NCBI GenBank assembly: GCA_017404795.1
Contig: JAFRBR010000011.1
Location: 1-37,368 of the forward strand
Direction: 5' to 3'
DNA: 37,368 bases
DNA from: Candidatus Saccharimonadota bacterium
GTDB lineage: Bacteria > Patescibacteriota > Saccharimonadia > Saccharimonadales > Saccharimonadaceae
Shown here: positions 7,658-36,989 of the stretch, piece by piece
Layout of the letters: each line of letters starts with the position of its first letter
Position numbering within the stretch: position 1 is the first letter of the stretch
Translations under genes and position numbers: made by a program
The notes under the pieces: generated by a model
Databases searched by the model: none
What the model saw: the letters and a program-made list of their open reading frames with translations, nothing else
Told to the model about the DNA's origin: nothing

Positions 7658-7666
7658 ATTATAGCA
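7658..7666 (-). promoter_or_regulatory. Extended -10 of the acyltransferase-like gene
   Basis: TGCTATAAT, hexamer 7658-7663, six bases before the ATG at 7651. It starts directly after the last tRNA-Gln-derived repeat. Confidence 0.7.
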
Positions 7667-7848
7667 CAAAAATGGCTGGTATGGAGGGATTCGATTCGAG
7701 CGAAGCGAGAACGATGTCCCCGCTTTTTTGTGTTTTTGTGAAACAAAAATGGCTGGGATGGAGGGATTCGATTCGAGCGAAGCGAGAACGATGTCCCCGC
7801 TTTTTTGTGTTTTTGTGAAACAAAAATGGCTGGGATGGAGGGATTCGA
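7667..7848 (-). repeat. Tandem 77-bp repeats carrying the 3' end of tRNA-Gln
   Basis: Two full units (7667-7743 and 7744-7820) differ at one base. The first 28 bases of the unit recur a third time at 7821-7848, and this stretch includes the real tRNA-Gln 3' end. Read on the minus strand, each unit holds a T-rich hairpin (TTTTTGT/ACAAAAA), an 8-bp hairpin GCGGGGAC-ATC-GTTCTCGC with two G-U pairs (7705-7723, 7782-7800), and then the T-loop to CCA end of tRNA-Gln. The duplicated tRNA part is TCGAATCCCTCC followed by ATCCCAGCCA; the outer unit has A for C once. No integrase lies nearby. Confidence 0.9.
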
Positions 7849-7901
7849 ACCCCCGAATGGTGGGATCAGAACCCACTGCCTTACCACTTGGCGACATCCC
7901 A
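7827..7901 (-). tRNA. tRNA-Gln (anticodon CUG)
   Basis: 75 nt with encoded CCA (7827-7829). Acceptor stem TGGGATG/CATCCCA with discriminator G. The anticodon arm is GTGGG-TTCTGAT-CCCAC, giving anticodon CTG for codon CAG. The T-arm has GGTTCGAATCC. The U1-A72 end pair is typical of bacterial glutamine tRNAs. Two further copies of its 3' end follow downstream. Confidence 0.93.
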
Positions 7902-31051: not shown

Positions 31052-31127
31052 GCCGACTTAGCTCAGCTGGCAGAGCAACGGTTTTGTAAACCGTAGGTCG
31101 TCGGTTCGATCCCGACAGTCGGCTCCA
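31052..31127 (+). tRNA. tRNA-Thr (anticodon UGU)
   Basis: 76 nt including encoded CCA (31125-31127), discriminator T. Acceptor GCCGACT/AGTCGGC. The anticodon arm ACGGT-TTTGTAA-ACCGT gives TGT for codon ACA. T-arm GGTTCGATCCC. The last 10 bases plus one recur at 31202-31212. Confidence 0.94.
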
Positions 31128-31212
31128 TGAGTGAAAAGCAAGCAAAAATGCTTGCATTTTTGATAGATTTTCCGAATGGAGCATGAGTTTGCTTCTGCGC
31201 GGTCGGCTCCAT
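31118..31212 (+). repeat. Duplicated 3' end of tRNA-Thr(UGU)
   Basis: GTCGGCTCCAT occurs at 31118-31128 (end of the tRNA) and again at 31202-31212, followed by TTTTT. The second copy can pair with ATGGAGC (31178-31184) to form a terminator-like hairpin. The copy is short, but it has the same start-to-CCA nature as the tRNA-Gln and tRNA-Tyr duplications. Confidence 0.6.
31138..31161 (+). terminator. Terminator of tRNA-Thr(UGU)
   Basis: GCAAGCA-AAAA-TGCTTGC (31138-31155) followed by a T-run at 31157-31161. Confidence 0.8.
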
Positions 31213-36720: not shown

Positions 36721-36921
36721 TGGTGCTGGAGGTAGGACACTTATTCCTCGTTTACGCTCGGAATAATACGCCGGGCGTCGTCTCGAAAAATCTCAAATAA
36801 ATTTGAGATTTTCACTCGCCTCCTACGGCGTCCGAACCTACGGTTCTCGTCCTATCCCAATATCAAATAAAATATTCTTGATTATAAGTCAAGAATATTT
36901 TATTGGTGCTGGAGGTAGGAC
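36721..36921 (-). repeat. Duplicated 3' end of tRNA-Tyr with hairpins between
   Basis: The plus-strand sequence TGGTGCTGGAGGTAGGAC (18 bp) occurs at 36721-36738 and at 36904-36921, the true tRNA-Tyr end including CCA. Between the copies are a perfect 16-bp inverted repeat (36866-36881 with 36889-36904), a roughly 11-bp hairpin (36787-36812) and shorter GC hairpins. One of these (near 36832-36848) includes CGTAGGTTCG, a copy of the 5' half of the T-arm. So a second tRNA-Tyr T-arm appears split in two around the hairpins. There is no coding frame in this stretch. Confidence 0.85.
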
Positions 36922-36989
36922 TCGAACCTACGAAGCGCGAAGCGCGAGAGATTTACAGTCTCTTGTCATTGCCACTAGACGACTCCAGC
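36904..36989 (-). tRNA. tRNA-Tyr (anticodon GUA)
   Basis: 86 nt including encoded CCA (36904-36906), discriminator A. Acceptor GCTGGAG/CTCCAGC. The anticodon arm AGAGA-CTGTAAA-TCTCT gives GTA. A long variable arm of about 16 nt (repeated CGCGCTTCG) makes it a class II tRNA, as in other bacterial tRNA-Tyr. T-arm GTAGGTTCGAGTCCTAC. Confidence 0.93.

Follow-up and report, generated by a model that had tools for sequence, protein, structure and literature searches.

Short hairpin units duplicated at tRNA genes of a gut Saccharibacteria genus, read as possible tiny insertion elements, or remnants of attachment sites, that are specific to the 3' ends of tRNAs

The stretch of DNA analysed here (the window, 37,368 nucleotides) is from contig C3 of a Candidatus Saccharimonadota assembly, which belongs to a 0.69-Mb genome (G000). 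On its minus strand lies a tRNA-Gln(CTG) gene with encoded CCA (7827..7901; ARAGORN, and Rfam RF00005 at 61.9 bits), and directly 3' of the CCA, in the tRNA reading direction, follow two units of 77 nt that differ by one mismatch. Unit 1, proximal to the tRNA, occupies 7826-7750 and unit 2 occupies 7749-7673, as seen in the sequence and by repeat search, with covariance model scores of 76.9 and 75.1 bits, respectively. The repeat search itself placed the direct repeat at 7666-7742 and 7743-7819 of the plus strand (77 nt, 99% identical, start-to-start distance 77). Each unit ends in CGAATCCCTCCAT(C/A)CCAGCCA, which is the tRNA-Gln tail from C56 of the T-loop to A76 (7827..7847, minus strand), a 21-nt duplicated segment whose boundary was set by comparison of 134 units. 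The tail copy of unit 1 (7750-7770) is the same as the tRNA at 21 of 21 positions, and that of unit 2 (7673-7693) has one mismatch; a 29-nt core of tail plus ACAAAAA occurs three times, with the tRNA counted. The first-pass annotation of the window had described the near-identical pair and its T-loop-to-CCA ends correctly, and its remark that no integrase is near is true for the tRNA-Gln locus. An Rfam scan of the window returned only tRNAs and an L10 leader, with no family match for the units at gathering score.

Read with the tRNA, a unit consists of hairpin 1 (TTTTTGT-TTC-ACAAAAA; 7810..7826 in unit 1, 7733-7749 in unit 2; plus-strand loop GAA), then CACAAAAAAGC, the 5' arm of hairpin 2 (GGGGACATCG; 7789..7798 and 7712-7721), an inner hairpin (7771..7788 and 7694-7711; ATTCGAGCGAAGCGAGAA on the plus strand of unit 1, with 12-mers common to several isoacceptors), and finally CGAATCCCTCCATCCCAGCCA, i.e., the tRNA from C56 to A76. 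An A-tract is present in addition to the two hairpins. Two hairpins had been proposed for each unit at the outset. The first, TTTTTGT/ACAAAAA, was upheld and covaries in relatives and within G000 (e.g., TTTTTCT/AGAAAAA), and its variants include unrelated GC-rich stems. The second, GCGGGGAC/GTTCTCGC, was the minimum-free-energy fold of a single sequence and was replaced, on comparison, by a covarying T-arm pairing of GGGACATCG with CGAATCCC of the tail copy. When 34 units were aligned, hairpin 2 had its 8-bp outer stem paired in 91.5% of cells, and sliding the partner strand abolished hairpin pairing; across the whole structure both partners had changed in 42 cells, whereas shuffles averaged 13.9 and none of 500 reached 42. 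The 5' arm of hairpin 2 is complementary to the T-loop/T-stem 3' strand of the tRNA and changes along with that tRNA. Since the variable side of the hairpin is the tRNA T-arm, the arm of each unit follows its tRNA. Hairpin loops range from 2 to 20 nt.

The annotation had suggested a search for the unit in relatives, and had named its absence from all of them as refuting; a similarity search of the 174 genomes of the genus gave homologues in 81, so this refutation clearly fails. Collected in all were 134 distinct units of this kind (type A), about 60-84 bp long, behind 27 tRNA isoacceptors, including Gln, Gly, Ser, Trp, Tyr, Asn, Asp, Val, Ile, Leu, Lys and others. Every unit closes with the tail of the tRNA that it follows, with 21-nt identity in 109 of the 134, and the tails match the host's own tRNA variant. 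The sequence context examined was that of stretches around tRNAs. With a tail copy defined as at most 3 mismatches in 16 within 250 nt downstream of a tRNA, 137 of 279 sampled tRNAs (a sample enriched for units) had one, compared with 1 upstream and 2 on the opposite strand, so that duplication of the tail is far beyond chance. Apart from the survey of tRNA-Asn described below, units were found by similarity, and fractions across tRNAs are accordingly not rates. The heaviest load was 11-12 units per genome (G025, G098, G121), copy numbers being uncertain in draft, multi-contig genomes of which several contigs end inside units. A covariance model built from the 34 units detected 47 genomes of this genus and a single marginal match outside it among 393 genomes from 156 genera of the order; type-A units are almost confined to one gut Saccharibacteria genus. 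Named carriers of the hairpin-1 sequence are mostly uncultured 'Candidatus Saccharibacteria' draft assemblies, many from ruminant guts. Matches to a 20-nt pattern outside Saccharibacteria (Enterococcus and others) are probably chance, the hairpin-1 pattern was not found in IMG/VR viral contigs, and nothing on such Saccharibacteria tRNA repeats or units was found in the open-access literature.

Within G000, 8 of 42 tRNAs have a restored tail: Gln-CTG (two copies), Gly, Asn (truncated tail), one annotated His with a Gln-TTG-type tail, Ser-TGA, Tyr, Lys and Ser-GGA; a match first listed for Pro-TGG was the neighbouring tRNA-Pro. The Ser-TGA, Tyr, Lys and Ser-GGA elements are of other structural types, which consist of a terminator palindrome with a T-stem/acceptor fold-back or of branched structures of 140-200 nt. 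In the window, a 183-nt branched element on the minus strand (36721-36903) lies behind tRNA-Tyr (36904-36989), beginning with an AT-rich terminator palindrome followed by GAGAACCGTAGGTTCGGACG... and ending in the tRNA-Tyr 3' end; relatives of it lie behind tRNA-Ile (G147), tRNA-Arg (G071) and tRNA-Asn (G103, G154). Behind tRNA-Thr(TGT) (31052-31127), a stretch of 84 nt on the plus strand (31128-31211) contains a terminator-like palindrome, ends in the last approximately 10 nt of the tRNA (GTCGGCTCCA) and is followed by TTTTT; this is possibly another, decayed unit type. Long fold-back elements, CATCTCGGCG...CGCCAATCTGA, are found behind tRNA-Lys and tRNA-Ala of G000 (L067 on C4, L054 on C17) and near tRNA-Tyr in G147 (L291), and the tRNA-Lys element ends in the tRNA tail. 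Finally, TTGGACGAGAGTCCAATTTTTT...GGCTCTAACAGGTTAAATTGGAGTC recurs downstream of tRNA-Asn in several species (G079, G129, G106, G098; L332, L340, L343, L388), possibly as another integrated element family.

Gain and loss of units is most clearly seen at tRNA-Asn. In a trio of close relatives having the same downstream flank, one genome (G131) is empty, the second (G036) has an additional unit of 80 nt and the third (G128) a different unit of 62 nt, so that precise empty and occupied sites exist that differ by exactly one whole unit. The tRNA is left intact by the unit, since a copy of C56-A76 ends each one. A sample biased toward units (12 of 13 tRNA-Asn) had suggested a conserved RNA at this gene, but this was ruled out by a survey blind to units, in which 17 of 70 tRNA-Asn genes had a tail copy and 6 a type-A unit, the remainder showing truncated hairpins, other terminators or nothing. 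Such patchy occupancy indicates that units come and go and that the tail decays afterwards, and it speaks against a conserved RNA function; units at tRNA-Asn show rapid turnover. The tRNA-Gln(CTG) gene is inverted relative to its two flanking genes in G079 and G115 (L094, L095) as compared with the window, a small inversion. In G052 (L278; C10, 28390-28570) a displaced tRNA-Ser 3' half, starting from the anticodon stem, is followed by a unit, an apparent scar of a larger anticodon-loop integration.

Genes, too, are found at these positions. At some tRNAs, single-gene cassettes start or end at tRNA tails, four of them with a unit at the distal end. At tRNA-Gly of G108 a gene that we take, from its translation and without a database match, to encode a 2-hydroxyacid dehydrogenase is flanked by two near-identical units; the homologous flank in other genomes has one unit and no gene, and the gene itself is present in 4 of 174 genomes. 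A presumably NUDIX-like gene, named on the same basis, precedes a unit at tRNA-Val of G121. Cassettes at tRNA-Ser of G124 and tRNA-Gln of G071 hold genes of no recognised family, with no significant Pfam match and no match to defence families, and the 125-aa gene of the latter is 97-99% identical in G156, G121 and G112. The far end of the cassette has, in six places, roughly the form ATTGTTAA..C.TG...AATT....C...CCA, closing with the last bases of a tRNA. One of the six is in G000 itself, where a 172-aa gene lies between tRNA-Met and a right end approximately 0.75 kb behind it (L070, contig C9, minus strand), and that right end, ATTGTTAATGCCTGAACAATTCGCCCCCACCA, is common to cassettes of G071, G121, G138 and G156. 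Read antisense, the right ends at L070, L034, L046, L402, L403 and L253 share a conserved peptide, W...I.QALTIYxEDI; the idea that it is an integrase C-terminus gained no support, and no integrase reading frame was found for it. Collectively, the cassettes demonstrate that small mobile DNA enters at the 3' ends of tRNAs in this genus, and a single machinery may serve both cassettes and gene-less units.

The clean gain and loss among close relatives suggests that the units are a family of small insertion elements, so far undescribed, which target the ends of tRNAs and for which no enzyme is known. On the best reading they are tiny insertion elements of DNA, or what is left of attachment sites, in either case specific to the 3' ends of tRNAs, with a mechanism that we infer. 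In its specific form, in which short DNA elements of about 60-84 bp insert at tRNA 3' ends by way of a site on a folded strand to which the tRNA T-arm contributes one half, this reading is tentative and is given a probability of roughly 0.45. Of the four readings offered by the first-pass annotation, decoy attachment sites among them, a small hairpin element targeting tRNA ends is the best supported, given the genus-wide family, the precise inserts and the adaptation of units to each tRNA; remnants of serial integration are kept as an option because gene cassettes occur at the same sites, and nothing was found to support RNA processing. A unit would be acquired at the T-loop or the CCA of a tRNA gene, through an event that is either site-specific or directed by homology, with folded single-stranded DNA as the working form. 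Hairpin 2 would then be a half-tRNA attachment site, similar to attC, with its R box borrowed from the tRNA T-arm; the 77-bp units would be the gene-less form, and tandem copies could arise from repeated insertion or unequal recombination.

Some properties of the hairpins bear on the strand involved. When hairpin 1 is read on the strand opposite to that of the tRNA, 29 of 52 distinct stems have a GNA or GNNA loop, compared with 3 of 52 for the complement pattern; these loops include GTTA, GTCA, GCTA and GACA, none of which is an RNA GNRA loop. DNA is stabilised by GNA/GNNA loops and by tandem G.A pairs in CGAG contexts, and CGAG/CGAG tandem G.A mismatches lie within ATTCGAGCGAAGCGAGAA, the inner hairpin 2 of unit 1 on the plus strand. 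GCGAAGC, a known thermostable DNA mini-hairpin according to a work cited in PMC10527192, is present in both window units, within ATTCGAGCGAAGCGAGAA at 7777-7783 of the plus strand in unit 1. The loop pattern and GCGAAGC give a hint that folded single-stranded DNA may matter. Calculated with DNA energies, hairpin 1 is more stable on the antisense strand in 37 of 41 cases, whereas for hairpin 2 the same preference appears with RNA energies only (30 of 41), so that the energy calculations agree with a single-stranded DNA form only in part and the strand argument is mixed.

No dedicated recombinase for the units was found in the genomes of the genus. Nearly all of them have one Xer-like recombinase, which is the sole candidate enzyme that most genomes possess. 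Extra integrases do not track units across the genus, and a phage-type integrase as driver was rejected, as the unit-rich G096 (9 units) and G132 (7 units) have one PF00589 match each. Two further candidates were also set aside, the Y1 transposase (PF01797; 8 of 174 genomes) and Cas1 as in casposon- or CRISPR-like integration (PF01867; 11 of 174), both missing from G000 and from unit-rich genomes. Reverse transcriptase, as in a retro-element, is found in 98 of 174 genomes including G000 and was likewise rejected as driver, being unmatched in the unit-rich G096, G098, G121 and G132. Neither the 77-bp units nor the cassettes examined contain an integrase gene, a search without its extra domain as query identified no integron-specific integrase, and no excised or circular form of a unit was seen.

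The main rival to the insertion-element reading is a serious one, although on balance somewhat unlikely. In a local fold-back duplication, the nascent strand would switch template within the tRNA T-arm/acceptor hairpin and produce [tail + T-run][inverted pieces][tail]; template switching within the hairpin (quasi-palindrome correction) would keep the arms complementary, and homologous recombination between tRNA loci would spread the product with no mobile element involved. Direct or inverted copying of the neighbouring tRNA 3' end could account for nearly everything in the simplest unit (T-run, A-run, inverted T-arm, TTC, TTCGAAT, tail), and the unit has a T-run as long as that of its flank in 29 of 48 cases, against a permutation mean of 18.6. 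This tRNA-derived make-up and T-run agreement favour a local replication origin and count against an insertion element, as do the tails in the host's own tRNA variant and the lack of an enzyme that tracks the units. The recurrence of the most frequent inner 12-mer, CGTTCTTCGAAT, behind 12 isoacceptors is also counted in favour of fold-back duplication; inner sequences are closer within an isoacceptor than between isoacceptors (0 of 1000 permutations), a descriptive result as the sample holds near relatives. However, non-tRNA sequence (ACATCAAAAAG, and inner parts of the form CTCGCT..GCTCG) recurs across tRNAs and genomes, the GC-rich hairpin-1 variants are unrelated to the flank, and gene cassettes end in or beside such tails. 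The family is also restricted to a genus, whereas tRNA genes are universal.

An unlikely further reading, related to the insertion of elements, is an integron-like capture system anchored at tRNAs. The tRNA 3' ends would be dispersed attI-like sites and the single-stranded DNA hairpins that borrow the T-arm would be attC-like, with cassettes of 0-2 genes lacking their own integrase behind many tRNAs and the host Xer-like recombinase as driver.

It is more doubtful still that the units are transcription or RNA elements, i.e., tRNA terminators, antisense terminators or 3' processing signals under selection on RNA. Antisense reading places a T-tract after hairpin 2 as in an intrinsic terminator, T-runs often follow the CCA, some units have strong sense terminators, and the antisense preference of hairpin 2 with RNA energies would also fit. 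A terminator does not need an exact copy of the tail, however, and in several units the sense terminator lies upstream of hairpin 2; units behind a sense-direction terminator (e.g., TAGACCTATGGGTCTTTTTTT) would hardly be transcribed. Termination between convergent genes was ruled out by neighbour orientation, as the genes behind units are in the same direction in 64 cases and convergent in 48, compared with 39 and 50 without units, and show no convergent excess. No Rfam family matches the units, and the patchy tRNA-Asn occupancy, with many decayed copies, also argues against selection on RNA. Least of all are the units a metagenome assembly or binning artefact, a negligible prospect even with uncultured draft assemblies and contigs that end inside units, as is typical of repeats, since covarying units specific to each tRNA, together with sites that are precisely empty or occupied, turn up in assemblies made independently by many projects, although the number of copies in any one assembly could still be in error.

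Genes for tRNAs are classic landing sites of mobile DNA, and the tRNA-targeting elements known to us carry an integrase and are kilobases long. If the insertion-element reading is true, genus-wide units of 60-84 bp, each a copy of the end of the tRNA in front and with its hairpin adjusted to that tRNA, would amount to a novel and minimal route by which DNA enters tRNA genes; otherwise they may be a vivid record of fold-back mutation there. Either would bear on gene gain and loss in very small epibiotic bacteria.

Several known systems resemble the units in part. At E. coli tyrT, a single locus, 178-bp tandem repeats with 19 nt of tRNA have been reported to make rtT RNA. These likewise lie directly behind a tRNA with its 3' end in each repeat, whereas the present units are at many isoacceptors and in many species, duplicate 21 nt, have a covarying hairpin and lack an Rfam match. 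Quasi-palindrome template-switch products share the inverted and direct copies of local sequence, but not the recurring non-tRNA sequence or the genus-wide spread. REP/BIME sequences with RAYT are also short, non-autonomous hairpin repeats, many per genome and suggestive of single-stranded DNA; the units differ in sitting at tRNA ends and copying them, and the Y1 transposase is almost absent here. Similar to the attL and attR of tyrosine-integrase elements, the 21-nt C56-A76 direct repeats flank an insert (exact in 109 of 134) with precise empty and occupied sites, but no integrase gene is in or with the units, and ordinary tyrosine-recombinase core sites have a fixed overlap whereas loops in the units vary from 2 to 20 nt. 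Tycheposons measure 4-200 kbp, are bordered by a tRNA and have xerD (PMC10872708). As in these and other tRNA-targeting integrative elements, insertion is at a tRNA gene, an identical 3' part restores the tRNA and the displaced copy is at the far end; the units are 50 to thousands of times smaller, lack an integrase, match a hairpin arm to each tRNA and form tandem arrays. The attC sites and cassettes of integrons offer a further likeness in their hairpin site with strand asymmetry, bulges and a variable loop, their gene-less and single-gene cassettes and a recombinase encoded elsewhere, to which the units correspond in the conserved folded-strand pairing revealed by covariation and in the strand bias of the loops. 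They differ from integrons in a 3' arm of CGANTCC and not GTTRRRY, in a 21-nt target copy as against a 7-bp core, and in sites that are scattered over tRNA genes.
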